34,645 nt of DNA, from IMG/VR virus record IMGVR_UViG_3300006802_009853, positions 1-34,645 of that record. One strand, given 5' to 3'. The DNA comes from a virus. The translations under genes and the position numbers were made by a program. Positions within the stretch are counted from its first letter, which is position 1, and each line of letters begins with the position of its first letter. Of the stretch, positions 96 to 31,923 are shown piece after piece. Under the pieces are notes generated by a model, which was not told the origin of the DNA, did no database searches, and saw only the letters and a program-made list of their open reading frames with translations.

Positions 96-123
96 ATTAT
101 ACATACTTATCGGGATTTGTCAA
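96..123 (-). promoter_or_regulatory. Consensus sigma-70 promoter reading leftward
   Basis: On the minus strand, TTGACA (123-118) and TATAAT (101-96) are separated by 16 bases. Transcription would begin near 88, about 30 bases before the ATG at 57. Both hexamers match the bacterial consensus exactly, unlike the plus-strand promoters of this window, which mostly lack a -35 box. The 295 bases between the partial gene and the DUF1289 gene hold this promoter and otherwise no convincing gene. Confidence 0.7.
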
Positions 124-352: not shown

Positions 353-556
353 TTATTTTTCCCTATCATCAACAAAACCTTCGTCCCGCAATTTTTGCAT
401 ACTGTCGAGTCGTAGACGACTCTCTGTGATGATTTTTTCTCTTGTTTGGTCATCTGTGCTTCTCCAGATTCTTAAATCTCTAACAGTCATTCCACACGCT
501 TGGCAAATGCCTTCGCGGGTTAATCCGCACATCCTGATACACGGTGATCTTATCAT
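353..556 (-). CDS. DUF1289 family small cysteine-rich protein
   Basis: The product has 67 residues. The N-terminal half has the DUF1289 pattern: SPC (Cys6), Cys10, then a GICQACG block with Cys18 and Cys21, followed by a region containing WRSTDDQTR. The four cysteines probably bind one zinc ion; that is family-based inference. The family is widespread in bacteria as short proteins of unknown function and also occurs in phages. An AAGGAA Shine-Dalgarno (570-565) lies eight bases from the ATG. The gene is transcribed leftward, away from the morphogenesis genes. The length is normal for the family. Family assignment is confident; the role is unknown. Confidence 0.85.
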   Translation of the reverse strand: MIRSPCIRMCGLTREGICQACGMTVRDLRIWRSTDDQTREKIITESRLRLDSMQKLRDEGFVDDREK

Positions 557-1039
557 AATCTATATTCCTTATGTGTGTAAATAATACGGCGAGATTTGAT
601 AACTCACAGCCTGTGTAAGTCCGAACCCCTCCCTTTTATCCTACCAAGCAAGTACCTGATAGGATATAAGATAGTAACCAGTGAGCCACAAACCAGACGC
701 TTGCTTTTGGTGTGGGTGAGAGGGATCAACTCACAGTTCCATAAACTATTATGTGAACTTCTTATTACTAAGACCTTCGTCTGCCAAATGTATCAGGCGC
801 GGGTAACACCTGAGTCCAACTCCTAGCCATCATCAATTTTTCTACATCTGACTTTCGCCGTCCAAGCGCCACGAACAGGACAAATTTTTTACGTGACTGC
901 GTTATGTAGAGTGAATTAAGTCCTACTATCCACTTGATTATAGACAATTCAGGTTATTTTTCACCAATAAATCTGTATATTTAATAAAAACTTGTCTTTT
1001 TTGTATCTTGCTGTGTATAATAGATAAAAGGAGAAAAAT
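557..1039. other. Intergenic region between divergent gene sets, no convincing gene
   Basis: This 480-bp stretch separates the leftward DUF1289 gene from the rightward operon. The only long open frame (596-826, +) has no ATG and no Shine-Dalgarno, and its translation looks random. The stretch holds a direct repeat AACTCACAG (about 600-608 and 729-737), an imperfect inverted repeat ATCCTACC/GATAGGAT (638-665), a small TCAGG/CCTGA hairpin near 789-810, and the promoter at 992-1022. No tRNA cloverleaf was found. It may be a regulatory or replication-related spacer, but nothing decides this. Confidence 0.5.
992..1022 (+). promoter_or_regulatory. Promoter with TGTGTATAATA element, first plus-strand operon
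   Basis: TGTGTATAATA lies at 1012-1022, with TATAAT at 1016-1021. A possible -35 box TTGTCT (992-997, 4 of 6 matches to TTGACA) is 18 bases upstream. It sits 18 bp before the 56-codon gene and would drive the operon that includes the sigma-like gene. Of the six copies of this element, it is the one with the best -35 match, which would allow early recognition by the host polymerase. Confidence 0.65.
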
Positions 1040-1210
1040 ATGCAATCAAAGAAAATCAAGTCAGAACTGGTAACAAAGGCAACAGCCGAACTAAAAGCCC
1101 AAGTAAAGAAGGAATTAGATCAAGAAGATAAAAATTTAGAGGATTTATTAAATGAAAAAGAATCAAAAGCAAGTCTTTCAGATGAGCGTAGTAAAATACG
1201 CCGACAATGA
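1040..1210 (+). CDS. Small charged protein, 56 aa, unknown
   Basis: ATG at 1040 is preceded by AAAGGAG (1027-1033), six bases away, directly downstream of the TGTGTATAATA promoter. The predicted 56-residue product is very rich in Lys and Glu, begins MQSKKIKSELVTKATAELKA, and is probably largely helical. It has no recognisable domain. It overlaps the next gene by 59 bp in another frame. Promoter, SD and start codon line up well, so this is the probable first gene of the operon, although a leader-type translated segment cannot be excluded. Confidence 0.6.
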   Translation: MQSKKIKSELVTKATAELKAQVKKELDQEDKNLEDLLNEKESKASLSDERSKIRRQ

Positions 1211-1943
1211 TGACCATAATAACACAGATTTACTATTAGTCAATGACACAGTAAGGTTTTTTACAAAAAATCAAGAAGGTGAAGATAATTTCTTTACAGA
1301 GCAGAACATTTTCTATAAATTACAAAGAGTTTCAGAAAATGGTGTTGATTTTAACTATGTCGAGACTGGCATAGGCGAGTTGTATAAAAAGGGTAAGAAT
1401 TTCTTATTTAAACGAGAGTGGTGCTTTGATTTCAATGATTCAAACTCTGTAGGCCGTCGAAAGATACCCAAAAACGGCAATATACCGAAAACAAAGGTGT
1501 CAGAGAAAGAAAAGCTCTTTCTTTCTAAATACACCCCAGAAAACTTCAGAAAAACTCTCGTAAGTAAAAACAGTGTTATGTGTTCAACGGATAGGTTTAC
1601 TCCGTGTCCAGTAGAACTACAGAATAGCACACTTCTTGGCCGTCTAAATAATCAGATACAGTCTATCAATAAATCTGAGCTTAGAAAGATATTGACAGAC
1701 GAAGAAATGATACAGGCTATATCTTACAACAAAAAGACATTTGACTTTCATACTCGTAATATAAATATTCTTAATAAGAAGGGCCGTTTGTCAACGCCGT
1801 ATCTGCACCTTAAATTCAACGAAGAAATAAGGCCCAAAAAGGGATATTTAAGATACAACTACGAAGATGATTGTTTTGAGGGGTATGATGGAAAAAGATG
1901 GAGAGCTTTGATATGGGAGGGTAATGATGAAGATTCCAAGTAA
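1152..1943 (+). CDS. Hypothetical phage protein with fibre-like C-terminal motif
   Basis: The product has 263 residues. AGAGGA (1138-1143) lies eight bases before the ATG. The body has no recognised domain; it contains a few cysteines and a basic central region. The last 35 residues include GYLRYNYEDDCFEGYDGKRW, which resembles the short G-x-[IL]-R-[YF]-N...FEGYDG..W motif common in phage tail-fibre and structural proteins. That hints at a virion or capsid-associated role, but the gene lies with regulatory genes rather than the tail cluster. It overlaps the sigma-like gene at its 3' end, so the two are translationally coupled. Function unknown. Confidence 0.75.
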   Translation: MKKNQKQVFQMSVVKYADNDDHNNTDLLLVNDTVRFFTKNQEGEDNFFTEQNIFYKLQRVSENGVDFNYVETGIGELYKKGKNFLFKREWCFDFNDSNSVGRRKIPKNGNIPKTKVSEKEKLFLSKYTPENFRKTLVSKNSVMCSTDRFTPCPVELQNSTLLGRLNNQIQSINKSELRKILTDEEMIQAISYNKKTFDFHTRNINILNKKGRLSTPYLHLKFNEEIRPKKGYLRYNYEDDCFEGYDGKRWRALIWEGNDEDSK

Positions 1944-2451
1944 TCACAACGAACAAGAAACCCTAGACATAATGAAAAAGGTTATTAACAGAATATCTCC
2001 TAAGTATGTATTTTATGGTTATACAATTGATGATATAAAACAAGAGTCCTACATTATATGTATAGAAGCACTTGAAAGATATGATGAAACTCGCCCGTTG
2101 GAAAACTTCCTATCGGTAAACTTGTCAAATCGTCTAAAAAATTTCATCAGAGACAATTATTTTATAATAAGCGACGATGAAGAAAAAAACGAATCAAAAA
2201 TTAAGGTTCTACAGCCTGCGCAGCTTGATTACGAGTTTAATATAGTGGACGATGGAGAAAAGTACTCAGTAAATGATGAGCAAATAGATCTAAGCGAAAT
2301 GTCGTCGGTTATAGATAGAGAATTACCTTCTTCTCTAAGGATGGAATACTTAAAGATGATTAATAACATTTACGTTAATAAATTCAAGAAAGAAGAAATA
2401 TTACATAAAATAGATGAAATCTTAACGGAGAATGGCTATGAAAAAAGGTAG
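1927..2451 (+). CDS. Sigma-factor-like protein (region 2 only), candidate late sigma factor
   Basis: The product has about 174 residues. GGGAGG (1915-1920) lies six bases before the ATG at 1927 and only three before the alternative ATG at 1924, so 1927 is preferred. Residues about 30-78 read like sigma-70 region 2: TIDDIKQESYIICIEALERY matches the core-binding helix of the DLIQEG..GL..A...FD type, followed by a FLSVNLSNRLKNFIRDN helix where promoter melting and -10 contacts are expected. No sigma region 4 is recognisable, as in phage late sigma factors of the T4 gp55 type. An acidic segment (DDEEKNE) follows. The gene overlaps its upstream neighbour by 17 bp and its downstream neighbour by 14 bp. 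Its partner is expected to be host core RNA polymerase. The natural candidate target is the TGTGTATAATA element found before six gene blocks here; that pairing is inference. Confidence 0.7.
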   Translation: MKIPSNHNEQETLDIMKKVINRISPKYVFYGYTIDDIKQESYIICIEALERYDETRPLENFLSVNLSNRLKNFIRDNYFIISDDEEKNESKIKVLQPAQLDYEFNIVDDGEKYSVNDEQIDLSEMSSVIDRELPSSLRMEYLKMINNIYVNKFKKEEILHKIDEILTENGYEKR

Positions 2452-3226
2452 GTTCTCTAAAAATGAGATTGCACTGATAGAATCTTTACATTTAACACAT
2501 TCCGCGAAGGAGATTGCGGAAAAATTAAACAGAGATCCAGATAGTATTCATAACTTTCTAAAGAAGAAGCATGGAAAGGGCGCTTCTGCGGAGGAACTGG
2601 CGGCTTTTGACCTCGAAAACAGGGCTTACTGGCCCGAAATTAAAAATCAATTTACTGACGATGAGTTGAAGCTATTCAGATACCACTGGGCTAGAATTAT
2701 CTCCCAATTTCGCGATGATGTTATTCCTACTGAAGAACTTCAGGTTGTAGACTTAATAAAACTTGAACTACTAATGAATAGATCTTTAAAAAGTAATAAA
2801 TCGAACATTGAGCAGATTTCAGTGTTAGAGTCGCTCATACAAGAAGAAAGACAGAGAGATCCAGACCAGCAGAATCAAGATCAATTATTTAACATGGAGC
2901 GGCAGGTTGCTTCTCTTAAAGCCTCCCAGGAGGCTCTCAACAAGGACTACAGAGAGTTACAGACAAAGAAGAACTCTATGCTCAAAGAAATGAAAGCAAC
3001 GCGAGAGCAGCGCGTGAAGCGACTTGAGGACAGCAAGCAGAGTCTCACTGGATGGATAGCTTTTCTTATGTCTAATCCAGATGTGACCAAGCAATACGGC
3101 ATCGAGATGGAGAAAATGAGATTAGCTATGGAGAAAGAAAAAACTAGATTATCTCAGTATCATAAATATCAAGATGGTATGATAGATCAGCCATTTTTAA
3201 ACTCGGAAACAGCAAAGGAAGGATAA
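2438..3226 (+). CDS. HTH and coiled-coil protein, candidate small terminase
   Basis: The product has 262 residues from ATG 2438, chosen because ACGGAG (2425-2430) is seven bases upstream; the ATG at 2432 is too close. Residues about 6-42 form a helix-turn-helix (SAKEIAEKLNRDPDSIHNFL) of the type found in small terminases and MarR/GcrA-like binders. A conserved-looking helical block with WPEIKNQFTDDELKLFRYHW follows, then a long Gln/Glu/Lys-rich coiled coil (about 125-205), consistent with oligomerisation. Small terminases combine an N-terminal HTH with a central oligomerisation segment, and no other small terminase is visible before the large subunit 2.7 kb downstream. Lying next to the sigma-like gene, it could instead be a transcription regulator. 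DNA binding is moderately supported; the packaging role is inference. Confidence 0.55.
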   Translation: MKKGRFSKNEIALIESLHLTHSAKEIAEKLNRDPDSIHNFLKKKHGKGASAEELAAFDLENRAYWPEIKNQFTDDELKLFRYHWARIISQFRDDVIPTEELQVVDLIKLELLMNRSLKSNKSNIEQISVLESLIQEERQRDPDQQNQDQLFNMERQVASLKASQEALNKDYRELQTKKNSMLKEMKATREQRVKRLEDSKQSLTGWIAFLMSNPDVTKQYGIEMEKMRLAMEKEKTRLSQYHKYQDGMIDQPFLNSETAKEG

Positions 3227-4301: not shown

Positions 4302-4561
4302 AGATATACAAAGTTCATATATGCTTATCGGAAGTAATAGCTAGGCTTAAAAAATATGATCTAGAAGAATATAATTCATCAAATCCAATAATTTTTGTAG
4401 AAGCGTCTGATCCAGATGGAGCTTGCTATAAAACTATTTATAACTTTGCCCAAAAAATAACAAGAAAAGATCATTCAATCGAAACACTAGAGTTTGTAAA
4501 AGATTTATTCCACGATATAAGAGTAATAAAAATAGAGCTTGCAAATGAAAAGAAACTATGA
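4298..4561 (+). CDS. Small hypothetical protein, 87 aa
   Basis: ATG overlaps the gmd stop (ATGA), so translation is coupled. The 87-residue product has no family I recognise. It reads as a compact alpha/beta protein (MKIYKVHICLSEVIARLKKY start; central FVEASDPDGACYKTIYNFAQ), without membrane segments or cysteine clusters. Its 3' end overlaps the HNH gene by 17 bp. It sits in the nuclease/protease subcluster upstream of the terminase; a role in DNA metabolism is possible but unsupported. Confidence 0.65.
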   Translation: MKIYKVHICLSEVIARLKKYDLEEYNSSNPIIFVEASDPDGACYKTIYNFAQKITRKDHSIETLEFVKDLFHDIRVIKIELANEKKL

Positions 4562-4811
4562 AGACAAGGTGTATGCCGATTGGAGATTGGCTGTATTTAA
4601 AAGAGATAAGTTTAGATGTCAAATGCCCTCCTGCAAAAACAAAAAAGGCTTAAACGCCCATCATATTCACAAGTGGTCTACTGCTAGTACTCTTAGGTAT
4701 GATGTATTTAATGGTATTACATTATGTTATTCATGCCATAAAAAGGTTACTGGACACGAACATCTCTATATCGGTGTCTTTGAAGATATAAATAGAAGGA
4801 AAAAACACTAA
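4545..4811 (+). CDS. HNH endonuclease
   Basis: The product has 88 residues from ATG 4545; the upstream TTG at 4539 is less likely. It is a compact HNH nuclease: Cys25 and Cys30 form the first zinc pair, AHHIH (39-42) carries the catalytic His, Asn56 lies in FNGITLC, and Cys61 and Cys64 with His65 complete the second zinc pair and the motif. HNH proteins encoded near terminase genes stimulate terminase cleavage in several long-tailed phages (HK97 gp74 is the known case), and this one lies about 1.1 kb before the large terminase. A free-standing homing endonuclease is the alternative. It is followed directly, without a gap, by a second nuclease gene. Confidence 0.88.
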   Translation: MKRNYEDKVYADWRLAVFKRDKFRCQMPSCKNKKGLNAHHIHKWSTASTLRYDVFNGITLCYSCHKKVTGHEHLYIGVFEDINRRKKH

Positions 4812-7910: not shown

Positions 7911-7921
7911 TGTGTATAATA
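7911..7921 (+). promoter_or_regulatory. TGTGTATAATA promoter before portal gene
   Basis: An exact copy of TGTGTATAATA starts three bases after the terL stop; TATAAT is at 7915-7920. A weak -35-like TTCAAG (7892-7897) lies 17 bp upstream, inside terL. The transcript would have a leader of about 45 bases before the portal ATG. The leader begins ATAACAACATTCGTAAA, loosely like the leaders at 21665 and 28347. Confidence 0.7.
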
Positions 7922-10026: not shown

Positions 10027-10037
10027 TGTGTATATTA
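10027..10037 (+). promoter_or_regulatory. TGTGTATATTA promoter variant before protease-scaffold gene
   Basis: TGTGTATATTA differs by one base from the other five copies and follows a run of seven T. The -10-like hexamer TATATT is at 10031-10036. No -35 box is visible. The GAGGT ribosome site and ATG at 10053 follow 16 bases after the element, so the leader is very short. Confidence 0.55.
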
Positions 10038-13114: not shown

Positions 13115-13149
13115 GGAAAGGTAATCGAATGATTGCCTTTCCTTTTTTT
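13115..13149 (+). terminator. Rho-independent terminator after capsid gene
   Basis: GGAAAGGTAATC (13115-13126) pairs with GATTGCCTTTCC (13131-13142) through 12 pairs, one of them G-T, around a GAAT loop, followed directly by seven T. It is the clearest terminator of the window and separates the head genes from the fibre module, whose own promoter lies 17 bp downstream. Confidence 0.92.
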
Positions 13150-13165
13150 ATATATGGATTGGAAA

Positions 13166-13176
13166 TGTGTATAATA
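13166..13176 (+). promoter_or_regulatory. TGTGTATAATA promoter before fibre module
   Basis: An exact copy of TGTGTATAATA lies between the capsid terminator and the gene at 13216; TATAAT is at 13170-13175. No -35 hexamer is recognisable because the upstream bases are the terminator T-run. It allows the adhesion module to be transcribed independently of the head genes. Confidence 0.75.
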
Positions 13177-13215: not shown

Positions 13216-13710
13216 ATGGCAGCTTTGTCTGATTATCTAGAATCCGGGCTACTACATCATATTTTTAGAGGGGATTCTTTCCCAAAACCAACAGGCATTG
13301 CTTTAGCTTTGTGTAGCGGGGTTCCTCCAGAGTCTGGAAATGGTGCAAATTATGAAACTGGTGGGTGGCTACCAGAACTCCCCTCTGGCATTAATGGGTC
13401 TGGAACTGGATATTCTAGAATAGACCTGGGAGATCCATCTACGGCTGGAAATGCTGCATGGAACTTCAACACAGCAACACTAGACAATGGAAGTAGCGGT
13501 GTATTTAGTGTCATATGGAATTCTGGTAATTTAACATTTGATACAGCTTTGCTTGACTTAGGTTGGGTTTCTGGCATTGCCATTACAGACCACGCAGGGT
13601 ATGGTTCTGGAAACTTACTCATGGTAGCCGCGCTAAATAACCCAAGGATAGTATACATGGGAGACAATCTAAAGTTTGATCCAGAAGCATTACAAATTAG
13701 TTTTAAATAG
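13216..13710 (+). CDS. Small virion structural protein, tail-fibre associated family
   Basis: The product has 164 residues with TTAGGAG upstream. It matches the common phage pattern of a short N-terminal helix (LSDYLESGLLHHIFRGDSF), a strand with IALALCSGVPPESG, a GYSRIDLG turn, an LGWVSGIAITD strand and a GNLLMVAALNNPRIVYMGDN ending. Proteins of this shape are usually annotated as tail-fibre or minor structural proteins and lie beside fibre genes, as here, ten bases before the 1780-aa fibre. The precise role (fibre attachment or decoration) is not known. Confidence 0.7.
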   Translation: MAALSDYLESGLLHHIFRGDSFPKPTGIALALCSGVPPESGNGANYETGGWLPELPSGINGSGTGYSRIDLGDPSTAGNAAWNFNTATLDNGSSGVFSVIWNSGNLTFDTALLDLGWVSGIAITDHAGYGSGNLLMVAALNNPRIVYMGDNLKFDPEALQISFK

Positions 13711-19087: not shown

Positions 19088-20464
19088 ATGGGAAGACCTA
19101 GAAGTTTTTACCAGGGTTATAACCCTTACTGTGATGAATCTTGGAAATGTTGTACTCCAGCCCCTTGTGTTTCAGGCGCTTGTTGTTGGATACCGGGGTG
19201 TCAAAATTGTGGCAACTGTGATAGCTTATGTTCTTATGCTACAGATTTTGAATGTATGGTCTTTGGGGGTAATTTTATACCTGATATTGGTTGCGTTGGG
19301 AGTGGTTTGGATGAAATACGTCCTACTAATAACAAACCATCGCCCAACTCACAGGTTTGGATACAACCTTATGGTTCTGGATGTGGTGGGATCTATACAT
19401 GTTTTACATCTGGCTCTTTAGTATTAACTCCAACTGGTAATAAATCTATAGAAGAAATACAGGTTGGTGACACAGTTTCTACTCTAGATGGCGATAAAAA
19501 AGTACACGCTTTAGAAAACCCCTGCTTGGGGGATAGAAGGCTGATATCAATAAATAATAGCAAGTTCTTCTTTACTGAGGATCACCCAATAAAAACAACA
19601 GAAGGATTTAAAGCCGCTAACTACGAAATGTGTAATAATAATTATTCTTACATTGATTTAGTTGGGGAGTTGTCAGTAGGTGATTGTGTAGTTTCTAAAG
19701 ACGGATATGAAACAATCAAAGATATAGAATTTTCAGGTGCTGATTTTCAAACTAAACTTTATGATATAACTATAGATGATCCTCATGAATTTATTTGCGA
19801 GGATTTTGTTTTTCATAATTGTAGTATTTGTCCCGAACCAGCTTTTTGTTTTAGTGGTTGTTCTTTACCTTATGATTTTACTAGAGAGTTTATTGATGAT
19901 CGTACAGGTCAAGTTATTGACTCAATGAGTATTAGAATCACACAAAGTGGTTGTTATCCTCAGAGATTCCTGGCGACAAAAATAAGAGTTAGAGATGGTT
20001 CTTGCTATACTTCAGCCGGTAGAGTTGATGAAATGATACCATGTCTTGGTAAATGTTGTGGCGAAGAAGGTTGTTCGACCAGCAACGTTCGCCGCCTCTG
20101 TGATAGTTTGGGTACATTAGATTCATCCGCTACTTACGATGGGCCGGAAAATTGTGCTTATGTGCAACTTAGTGGGTATGGCGCTTGTTGTCCACCGTTT
20201 GGAAAAATAGGTTCAGCAGTAGGTGATTGCAGTTGGCAACCCGATCAAGAGGCTTGTGATGATTATTGGGCGTCAGAAGGTCTTGGGCCTGGAAGATTTT
20301 TTGAAGGAGAAGACTGCGTTGATAATCCATGTACTTTTATGGGTGGAGCTTGTTGTTATGATGATGGAACACCCTGCGTTGAAACGGGGGTTTTACAATG
20401 CGGTGGAACTTATTATGCTGGTCTTTCGTGCGCAGACGTAATACCTTTTACTTGTACCGGTTAG
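19088..20464 (+). CDS. Cysteine-rich GACC-repeat virion protein interrupted by a mini-intein
   Basis: The precursor has 458 residues with AAAGGAA upstream. Residues 105-244 form a mini-intein; removing it leaves a 318-residue protein with an exceptional number of cysteines. The mature part contains four repeats that open with G[AK]CC (about 30, 321, 365 and 420) and continue with spaced cysteines and an F/Y-x-G-x-x-C ending, a pattern seen in bacterial cell-surface proteins and probably disulfide-stabilised. Between repeats 1 and 2 lies a non-repetitive domain with FTREFIDDRTGQVIDSMSIR. No signal peptide is present, so folding would be completed outside the reducing cytoplasm. Its position between the giant fibre and a glycosyltransferase suggests a fibre-tip or decoration protein. 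The alternative is a secreted phage protein. Confidence 0.75.
   Translation: MGRPRSFYQGYNPYCDESWKCCTPAPCVSGACCWIPGCQNCGNCDSLCSYATDFECMVFGGNFIPDIGCVGSGLDEIRPTNNKPSPNSQVWIQPYGSGCGGIYTCFTSGSLVLTPTGNKSIEEIQVGDTVSTLDGDKKVHALENPCLGDRRLISINNSKFFFTEDHPIKTTEGFKAANYEMCNNNYSYIDLVGELSVGDCVVSKDGYETIKDIEFSGADFQTKLYDITIDDPHEFICEDFVFHNCSICPEPAFCFSGCSLPYDFTREFIDDRTGQVIDSMSIRITQSGCYPQRFLATKIRVRDGSCYTSAGRVDEMIPCLGKCCGEEGCSTSNVRRLCDSLGTLDSSATYDGPENCAYVQLSGYGACCPPFGKIGSAVGDCSWQPDQEACDDYWASEGLGPGRFFEGEDCVDNPCTFMGGACCYDDGTPCVETGVLQCGGTYYAGLSCADVIPFTCTG
19400..19819 (+). other. Mini-intein (Hint domain), 140 codons
   Basis: This protein-splicing element lies inside the Cys-rich gene. Block A starts at Cys105 with CFTSGSLVLTP and continues IEEIQVGDTV. 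Block B is FFTEDHPIKT with the expected T-x-x-H (Thr163, His166). Block F is LYDITIDDPHEF. Block G ends VFHN (His243, Asn244) before Cys245, the +1 nucleophile. All residues needed for standard cysteine-type splicing are present. At 140 residues there is no room for a homing endonuclease, so the element cannot spread by itself. Splicing would join ..GGIYT to CSICPEP... A bacterial intein-like (BIL type A) domain that cleaves rather than splices is the alternative. Confidence 0.85.
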
Positions 20465-20472
20465 GAGGAAAA

Positions 20473-21513
20473 ATGAAGAAATTATCAATAGGAATTGCTC
20501 ATCATCATGATTTTGATGGAGCTTGGTTTACAATACAGGACATAAAAAAAGAATTAATGTTCAATGATAGGATGGATTTATTAGATAAAATAGAATTTGT
20601 GATTGTTGACAATAGTTACAACTCTCCACACTCAGATATGTTAAAAAGATTTGCAACTGAGTCTCTAGCGCCACTAGTCTATGATGTATACGACGAGGAA
20701 GGTTCTGCAAAAGTAAAAAATAGGATTATTGAAAAGTCTAATAGTCCTTTTGTTTTAGTTTTAGATTGCCATGTTTTGCTATGCCCCGTTGTTAATACGA
20801 TGGAAAAAATAATTAACTTTATAGATGAAAATCAAGATACAGAGGATTTGTTTTATGGACCATTAGTGCAGGATAGATTATCAGTATCATTTCCGTTTTT
20901 TAAAAAGAAGTGGTCTAATGGCATGTGGGGTACTTGGCAGCTTGGTATGAGGTGTAGGTGTGGATCTTTCTACTTTTTTGCAGAAAATTTTGAAGTCTTT
21001 GATAGTGTAAAACAAATAAAACACACAAAATGTCCTCACTGCGATTTGTCATTTGAGGACGATGATTTAGATCTAGAAAATCCAGAATCCTACTACAAAT
21101 TTCTAAAAAAAGAAGAATGTGAATTTACTTGTTTGCTCAATAGTGATAGACCCTTTGAGATATGGGCGCAAGGTACTGGTTGTTTTTTAACAAAAAAAGA
21201 TAGTTGGCTGGGCTATAATAAATTACTTCAAGGTTTTGGTGGTGAAGAAGGATACATAGCAGAAAAATACAGAAAGAATGGAAGAAAAGTTTATTGCTTA
21301 CCGTTCTTGAAGTGGCTTCATAGGTTTGAGAAACCAAGCGGTGTATATTATAATACGGGAAACACTAGTAAAGCTAGAAATTATGTACTTGGTTTGTCAG
21401 AAATTGACTGTCCGCTACATGAGACTTATGAACACTTCGTTCAAGATCTTGAATTAGATCCGCTTTTGTTTCAGTCATTTGTCAACGAGGCTCGTTATCT
21501 TCTCAATAAATAG
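20473..21513 (+). CDS. Glycosyltransferase (GT-A fold, family 2-like) with zinc-ribbon insert
   Basis: The product has 346 residues from ATG 20473, which directly follows TAGGAGGA; the frame is open further upstream but without an SD. The N-terminal half has a GT-A nucleotide-sugar layout: an early strand, VIVDNSYN at about 43-50, and the metal-binding D-x-H motif in FVLVLDCH (Asp98, His100). Residues 161-190 hold two Cys pairs (CRC, CPHC) that look like an inserted zinc ribbon. The acceptor side has GTGCFLTKK, FGGEEG (255-260) and a His in WLHRF (281-285), as in GalNAc/Glc transferases. It may glycosylate the adjacent fibre or Cys-rich protein, possibly with a 6-deoxy sugar from the gmd pathway. 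The sugar and acceptor are inference. Confidence 0.8.
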   Translation: MKKLSIGIAHHHDFDGAWFTIQDIKKELMFNDRMDLLDKIEFVIVDNSYNSPHSDMLKRFATESLAPLVYDVYDEEGSAKVKNRIIEKSNSPFVLVLDCHVLLCPVVNTMEKIINFIDENQDTEDLFYGPLVQDRLSVSFPFFKKKWSNGMWGTWQLGMRCRCGSFYFFAENFEVFDSVKQIKHTKCPHCDLSFEDDDLDLENPESYYKFLKKEECEFTCLLNSDRPFEIWAQGTGCFLTKKDSWLGYNKLLQGFGGEEGYIAEKYRKNGRKVYCLPFLKWLHRFEKPSGVYYNTGNTSKARNYVLGLSEIDCPLHETYEHFVQDLELDPLLFQSFVNEARYLLNK

Positions 21514-21645: not shown

Positions 21646-21656
21646 TGTGTATAATA
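21646..21656 (+). promoter_or_regulatory. TGTGTATAATA promoter before structural/neck block
   Basis: An exact copy of TGTGTATAATA preceded by eight T and without a visible -35 box; TATAAT is at 21650-21655. It precedes the gene at 21756 with a leader of about 95 bases, the longest of the series, containing a hairpin (21668-21693) and a short upstream open frame. Confidence 0.75.
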
Positions 21657-28335: not shown

Positions 28336-28346
28336 TGTGTATAATA
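28336..28346 (+). promoter_or_regulatory. TGTGTATAATA promoter before tail tube gene
   Basis: An exact copy of TGTGTATAATA following a T-run, eight bases after the preceding stop; TATAAT is at 28340-28345 and no -35 box is visible. The transcript leader begins ATACAGCAATTCTACA (28347-28362), matching the leader at 21665 except for one base, and then has AAGGAG before the ATG at 28384. Confidence 0.78.
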
Positions 28347-31048: not shown

Positions 31049-31923
31049 CTAAAAGAAACATAGAAGTTAAGACGGAAGATGGAAAAGTAGTTAAAATTTA
31101 CATTACCAAGCCGCCGTCTGAAGTTGTCGGAAAAGCAGACATGTATAGAGCCAAGGTCTGGACAGAATGCATTGACCAAGGCATTAAAACAAAAGAACAA
31201 TTAGCTAAATTCATGGTCGAGAAAGGAGTCTGGACGATTGAATCGGTAGAAAGGGAAACTGACATAATTGAAGAATTAGGAATTTTAGAAAAAAGACTCT
31301 ACATTGGAGACTCAAAAAGAGAAAAAAAGAAATTCTTAATAGAAGAAGGTAAAAATATTGCAATTAAAATGAGGGTTTTAAGGAATGAACTCAGGCAAAT
31401 ATATTTAGAAAGAAGCAGTATAGAGCAAAACACCGCAGAAGCTCTTGCTGATAATGCTAGGTTTGATTATTTGGTAGCTAGCTGTACCTTTTATGAAAAC
31501 GGACAAAAGGTGTATAATACAATAGAAGAATATAATCAAAAAGCCGCTGATGAAATTGCTTACTCAGCAGCTTCTGAGTTGGCAAATATAATGTATGGAT
31601 ATGATCCTAAAAGTCAAGAATCATTACCTGAAAATAGATGGCTTAAAAAATTCAATTTAGTAAATGATAAGGGGAGTTTAGTCAATAAAGATGACAAACT
31701 AGTTGACCTAGAAGGAAGACTTATTAACGAAAAAGGTCATTATATTGACGAGCAGGGGAACAGAATTGATATTGATGGTAATCCTCTAGACGAAGATGGT
31801 AACTATAAACTTGTTATAGAATATGTAGAAGAAAAAGCAAAACCCGTTAAGAAAAAAACCACCAAAAAAGTAACTAAAAGAACAACAAAGTCTACAGATA
31901 GCAAAACGGATAGTGTGGCTTAA
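31045..31923 (+). CDS. Tail assembly chaperone-like protein 2 with heptapeptide repeats
   Basis: The product has 292 residues with GAGG upstream. Residues 33-86 (MYRAKVWTECIDQGIKTKEQ, then LAKFMVEKGVWTIE) share the domain of the protein at 29647. A helical region follows. Residues 206-254 are seven successive heptapeptides of the form [VIL][ND]x[DEKQ][GD]xx, probably a short beta-solenoid or ion-binding stalk. The C-terminal 30 residues are a Lys/Thr-rich basic tail (KPVKKKTTKKVTKRTTK), likely disordered. It ends 17 bp before the tape measure. The chaperone role is based on position and paralogy. Confidence 0.65.
   Translation: MTKRNIEVKTEDGKVVKIYITKPPSEVVGKADMYRAKVWTECIDQGIKTKEQLAKFMVEKGVWTIESVERETDIIEELGILEKRLYIGDSKREKKKFLIEEGKNIAIKMRVLRNELRQIYLERSSIEQNTAEALADNARFDYLVASCTFYENGQKVYNTIEEYNQKAADEIAYSAASELANIMYGYDPKSQESLPENRWLKKFNLVNDKGSLVNKDDKLVDLEGRLINEKGHYIDEQGNRIDIDGNPLDEDGNYKLVIEYVEEKAKPVKKKTTKKVTKRTTKSTDSKTDSVA
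31660..31806 (+). repeat. Seven heptapeptide repeats encoded in chaperone 2
   Basis: Successive seven-residue units read VNDKGSL, VNKDDKL, VDLEGRL, INEKGHY, IDEQGNR, IDIDGNP and LDEDGNY. Position 1 is hydrophobic, 2 is N/D, 4 is usually acidic or Lys, and 5 is Gly in six of seven. DNA identity between units is low, so the repeat is maintained at the protein level. Confidence 0.85.

Follow-up and report, generated by a model that had tools for sequence, protein, structure and literature searches.

In the T4 sigma factor gp55, a sigma-2 domain is present but region 4 has not been recognised, and the T4 late promoters are -10-like elements without a -35 (PMC7892883, PMC2988020). The T4 review literature raises the question of why no fused late-transcription sigma exists. 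In phages phiEco32 and 7-11, the sigma gene is predicted to lie under both host and phage promoters, giving an early start and later self-maintenance (PMC4331800). Here, we analysed a window of 34,645 bases, a virus record that is probably a fragment, in which a 174-aa protein (S1; coordinates exact in the window, Table 1) is encoded at the head of the packaging operon, unlike gp55. In function, gp55 offers the closest model for S1, both being small phage sigmas with a sigma-2 domain and -35-less late promoters. The phiEco32 and 7-11 circuit is analogous to the one we propose for S1 (host start, then self-maintenance), with the difference that the host and phage promoters occupy separate positions in those phages, whereas a host -35 and a phage element are combined in one promoter here.

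S1 is a protein of the sigma-70 superfamily. Its start, MKIP.N, is kept among homologues, and the frame is real. Pfam Sigma70_r2 matched all 31 aligned homologues (best E=8e-8), and its cut-off of 24 bits was passed by S1 in 15 of 18 records, the window protein taken alone falling just under it (19.8 bits, E=6.8e-4). The window protein was also matched by the PHROG sigma factor profile (3.6e-6) and by NCBIfam sigma70-ECF (1.3e-5, under that profile's cut-off), and a profile search of the PDB gave weak sigma matches with SigB on top. In the AlphaFold model, residues 3-78 superposed on sigma domain 2 with a Z score of 10.0 and an rmsd of 2.0-2.8 A across 71-74 residues; the fold matches displayed for this segment were sigma factors. 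The sigma region 2 signature that the earlier note had read from the letters, and for which it had proposed a comparison with region 2 profile families, was thus borne out. The DIKQE motif of region 2.2 was invariant in 31 sequences and aligned with the core-binding DLIQE of sigma-70. Against a hand-entered sequence of sigma-70 regions 2.1-2.2, the homologue L028 scored 65 (shuffles, 22.9 +/- 4) and the window S1 scored 47. The segment after the clamp helix, where regions 2.3 and 2.4 lie, was conserved as RPLENFLSVNLSNRLKNF.RDN. Cellular sigma-70 and ECF sigmas share with S1 the region 2 fold and the DxxQE core-binding motif; unlike them, S1 has no detectable region 4 helix-turn-helix, and by inspection its melting region does not carry the tryptophan pair typical of sigma-70. 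Stop-codon recoding was considered for the four records in which a TAG fell within the S1 match, and was rejected, the inspected cases (L213, L215, and L216) carrying a true stop.

The remainder of S1 consists of a disordered linker and a conserved C-terminal domain of about 60 residues, whose three helices reached a pLDDT of about 95 when predicted alone. Within the core of this domain (LPxxxRxDYLK), P, R, Y, and L did not vary. Both the LPxxxR motif and the helix-LP-helix order recall sigma region 4.1, which contacts the beta flap in cellular sigmas, and region 4 was considered for this domain; profile and fold searches gave it no support. Foldseek returned no significant match for the C-terminal model, the best fold match was an unrelated chain (Z 4.8), the C-terminal profile reached 0.8% against a sigma-4 set, and a PDB sequence search gave no region 4 match, a lack of matches that does not amount to proof of absence. 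The likeness of the helix-LP-helix start to sigma 4.1 is a resemblance only and serves as a lead. The claim that no region 4 is recognisable thus stands, whereas the label 'region-2-only' gives way to the conserved three-helix domain; S1 is better described as region 2 joined to a domain without a recognised fold relative. This second, conserved domain may represent a flap-binding half that has been remodelled. Tentatively, S1 could then be a fused late sigma, in which a sigma-2 domain and a remodelled flap-binding domain that has lost -35 reading would do the job of gp55 and gp33 in one chain and read the seven-base core GTGTATA; we consider this doubtful, and it depends on whether the C-terminal domain binds the beta flap.

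The comparison with gp55 drawn in the earlier note held for the presence of region 2 without a recognised region 4, and was weaker in other respects. Alignment of S1 to gp55 by hhalign gave a weak match (E=0.0029, probability 10.6%, 47 columns only), and 3 of 31 S1 members weakly matched the PHROG late sigma family. Where S1 has its conserved three-helix domain, gp55 has a helix-loop-helix and a hydrophobic/acidic clamp-binding C-terminal tail; by inspection, the 31 S1 C-termini were short charged tails (e.g., GYEKR or EEG) and none was hydrophobic. T4 uses the clamp gp45 together with gp33, whereas no match to the gp45-type clamp family PF02916 was obtained in seven records, which may be incomplete, and clamps diverge. 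PolA was not found in the records searched. The T4 late promoter motif is TATAAATA, as opposed to GTGTATAnT here; when the T4 motif was tried as the element, it showed no strand bias in the loci (33 versus 28) and was rejected. Having seen no tail of the clamp-binding kind, no late promoters of the T4 type, and only a weak profile link, we do not file S1 under the gp55 family, with which it may nevertheless share its way of working.

A -35-less late promoter family with the core GTGTATAnT is real, conserved, and accompanies S1, in agreement with the earlier note, which had described such a set. The window contained eight sites, all on the coding strand, typified by GTGTATAATA (Table 1). The string GTGTATAAT occurred six times on the plus strand and not at all on the minus strand (0.3 expected under a third-order model), and TGTGTATAATA occurred five times (0.02 expected). 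Although 97.6% of the region is coding, six of the eight GTGTATAnT sites were intergenic, and elements were located 27-109 bp upstream of the genes at 1040, 7973, 13216, 21756, and 28384. The site at 31510 is similarly placed in relatives, a recurrence that reflects either a promoter or a coding constraint.

Table 1. Positions of the sigma operon, its product, and the promoter elements in the window
Feature	Position	Strand	Remarks
Perfect host-type promoter, TTGACA-N16-TATAAT	96..123	-	points left out of the window, to the presumed early arm
Sigma operon promoter	992..1022	+	TTGTCT (992-997), 18 bp, GTG+TATAATA (1013-1022)
Small ORF, 39 codons	1040..1159	+	opens the sigma operon; kept in many relatives
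Fast-evolving 263-aa protein	1152..1943	+	directly 5' of sigma; 20-41% identity in relatives
S1, 174 aa	1927..2451	+	sigma domain 2, aa 3-78; flexible linker, about 80-116; three-helix C-terminal domain, 117-168 (profiles, alignment, model)
HTH and coiled-coil protein	2432..3226	+	overlaps the sigma stop; PHROG 'D5-like' HTH match
Element GTGTATAATA	7912..7921	+	61 bp 5' of portal-position gene; no -35
Element GTGTATATTA	10028..10037	+	after T-rich stretch; 5' of gene with likely start about 10054
Intrinsic terminator-like site	13115..13142	+	12 pairs, T run; directly 5' of next element
Element GTGTATAATA	13167..13176	+	49 bp 5' of head-protein gene at 13216
Element GTGTATATTA	21341..21350	+	within coding frame; may be chance
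Element GTGTATAATA	21647..21656	+	109 bp 5' of gene 21756
Element GTGTATAATA	28337..28346	+	47 bp 5' of gene 28384
Element GTGTATAATA	31510..31519	+	within gene, 431 bp 5' of tape-measure gene

Among 105 related loci, the element recurred in many upstream of the sigma operon, of the portal gene, and of the gene that comes next. The records come from uncultured phages and many are fragments; because the loci are related, these and the other locus counts overstate independence. The first loci contained 41 sense and 5 antisense occurrences of GTGTATAAT. Genomes of 80-163 kb carried the element along their late arms, and in G009, G029, and G032 the late-arm elements were on the sense strand and mostly intergenic. 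Some GTGTATAAT sites were present on the early arm too. The eighth position varied by clade and site (TATAAT, TATATT, TATAGT, and TATACT). Separately, in L022-L039 and L045 (e.g., L028:15950-15970), a clade without the portal element, the TerL stop (VY*) showed the nearly invariant sequence GTGTATTAAT, which may be coding or a variant element.

The sigma operon itself carries the same element, as had been claimed, and the further claim that its -35 is the best of the set was upheld by the relatives and not by the window. The window hexamer TTGTCT is a modest 4/6 match that ties with two other window sites on simple matches. For the comparison across relatives, near-identical sites were removed (for that test alone), leaving 41 non-redundant sigma-operon sites. 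A TTG at exactly 17 bp was found at 18 of the 41, compared with 0/34 portal sites and 0/42 third sites, and the match to TTGACA peaked sharply at 17 bp at the S1 operon only. At least five of six TTGACA positions were matched at 11/41 S1-operon sites versus 4/76 other sites (Fisher P=0.0015); on a simple 16-18 bp measure, the S1-operon -35 score was not above that of the AT-rich third site (P=0.22). Perfect TTGACA-17-TATAAT promoters preceded the operon in L015, L108, and L111, and in the 163-kb record G029 the sigma operon had the only perfect host-type promoter on the late arm, TTGACA-N17-TATAAT, whose -10 hexamer is preceded by GTG. The most divergent clade (L026-L039 and L045) had no clear -35 at the S1 operon, so that transcription by the host would have to begin from a different promoter in that clade.

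Records of 122 to 163 kb consist of two arms running in opposite directions, with the elements on the sense strand of the late arm and many near-perfect TTGACA-N16/17-TATAAT promoters on the early arm. Within 2.5 kb upstream of the S1 operon, at least one near-perfect host-type promoter pointed away from it (minus strand) in 42 of 51 loci and lay on the plus strand in 3 of 51. A simple sigma-70 scan of the window gave no excess over shuffles, so single matches mean little without comparison.

On this comparative evidence, we propose, with a probability of roughly 0.72, that S1 is a phage late sigma whose expression is started by the host and which then reads the GTGTATA late promoters, including its own, and so amplifies itself. 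In this scheme, host RNA polymerase with the host main sigma would transcribe the early arm from the strong TTGACA/TATAAT promoters, and the host polymerase would also transcribe the S1 operon, the late-arm unit that keeps its -35 at 17 bp in many lineages. Through D36, Q39, and E40 (DxxQE, region 2.2), S1 would bind to the clamp helices of beta' in the host core, and its C-terminal helical domain would most likely bind the core as well (e.g., at the beta flap) without reading a -35. It would then open the GTGTATA promoters of the portal, head, tail, and other late genes and of its own operon, and with its own promoter among the targets, late transcription would amplify itself. Host-started, self-amplified late transcription, which the earlier note had suggested, appears well supported by the comparison of relatives, many of which have a host-type -35 at the sigma operon that fits it.

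The main rival as reader is a second phage sigma, S2, of about 157 aa, encoded on the early arm and found through its region 4 helix-turn-helix (26.2 bits in G029, above the Sigma70_r4 cut-off). S2 was detected at 31 loci in IMG/VR (e.g., L054:6426-6896 (+), L164:14289-14795 (-), and L178-L208), and no relatives were found among cultured phages. Under this alternative, S2 reads the GTGTATA family, while S1 serves other promoters or partners S2 as a two-part late sigma. In line with it, S2 occurs with S1 in near-complete records and accompanies it in the records of at least 130 kb that have S1 and were searched with the S2 profile (G023, G029, G030, and G031), the S2 gene in these same four is immediately followed by a GTGTATA site, and S1 was found in 6 of 11 S2-bearing records, one as a broken match. 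The element, however, has no conserved -35 of the kind normally used by a region-4 sigma, which favours S1 over S2 as the reader, and S1 is itself encoded at the start of the late operon, behind a promoter of this -35-less family. Moreover, S2 was not found in G009, a possibly incomplete record with ten late-arm elements, and its region 2 is visible by eye and weak by profile. We therefore consider it unlikely that S2 reads the family and infer that S1 does so; S2 may instead be a middle-gene sigma.

It is more improbable that the host main sigma uses the elements as extended -10 promoters, with S1 a minor regulator. In favour of this reading, TATAAT matches the host -10 perfectly, and many relatives also have a -35 at the S1 operon. 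Extended -10 promoters carry TGn, whereas the GTG of the element directly abuts the hexamer and is thus one base off, and the early and late arms have different promoter classes. In the clade of G018 and G023, the late elements have drifted to GTGTATATCT, GTGTATACCT, and GTGTATAGAT; the last bases of the hexamer decay and GTGTATA is mostly kept, while the host-type promoters of G023 remain perfect TTGACA/TATAAT. Because the late elements drift while these promoters stay, the late reader is probably not a host sigma. Finally, S1 can hardly act as a decoy or anti-host factor whose sigma domain 2 would fill the clamp and stop host transcription: although that domain could bind the beta' clamp by itself, the part after the clamp helix (regions 2.3/2.4) is conserved and the S1 gene shares its operon with the element.

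S1 as a late sigma would probably be the late-gene switch of a large lineage of uncultured phages. A first IMG/VR scan yielded 44 S1 loci, one a copy of the window, and one profile-guided scan yielded 283 encoding stretches. By tblastn, no S1 relatives were found in the cultured-phage collection; with L028 S1, only two unannotated fragments appeared (32%, E 0.02 and 0.8). TerL was 21-28% identical to those of Bacillus and other phages. The HTH protein adjoined sigma in 44 of 44 loci and is a candidate small terminase or late regulator; S1, HTH protein, and TerL occur together, in an order that held in the 44 loci as far as these reach and in six of six further records. The sigma-operon promoter may be a readable host-to-phage handover within one promoter (host -35 and phage core), and the short, clean element could make late genes predictable in metagenomic fragments.

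Regarding the host, the relative L096 lies in contig VFHP01000009.1 of a SAR202 MAG, which is either bin contamination or a host hint. Other contigs of the bin also carried element runs, one resembling the phage record G030 by element spacing, and SAR202 is thus not established as the host. The phages are presumably marine, a label that we take from general knowledge of such IMG/VR samples and from the SAR202 bin.

Several minor observations were also made. Rfam and tRNA scans of the window gave no matches. Of 192 distinct perfect TTGACA-TATAAT promoters (early arms of G009, G023, and G029; window 123-96 (-)), 81 had the sequence CCGATA in their spacer, where it may be an operator for early shut-off. 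On the early-arm side of the sigma operon, positions 353-556 (-) encode a 67-aa DUF1289 protein (Pfam E=3.8e-11). The C-terminus of the 263-aa protein (GYLRYNYEDDCFEGYDGKRW) resembles a virion-protein motif, with a weak PHROG virion match. A 90-aa ORF at 4539-4811 weakly matched part of IscB (NCBIfam E=3.8e-7, far under the cut-off), and a gene of the structural region (19088-20464) contained a Hint/intein-like domain (Pfam Hint_2, E=1e-6).
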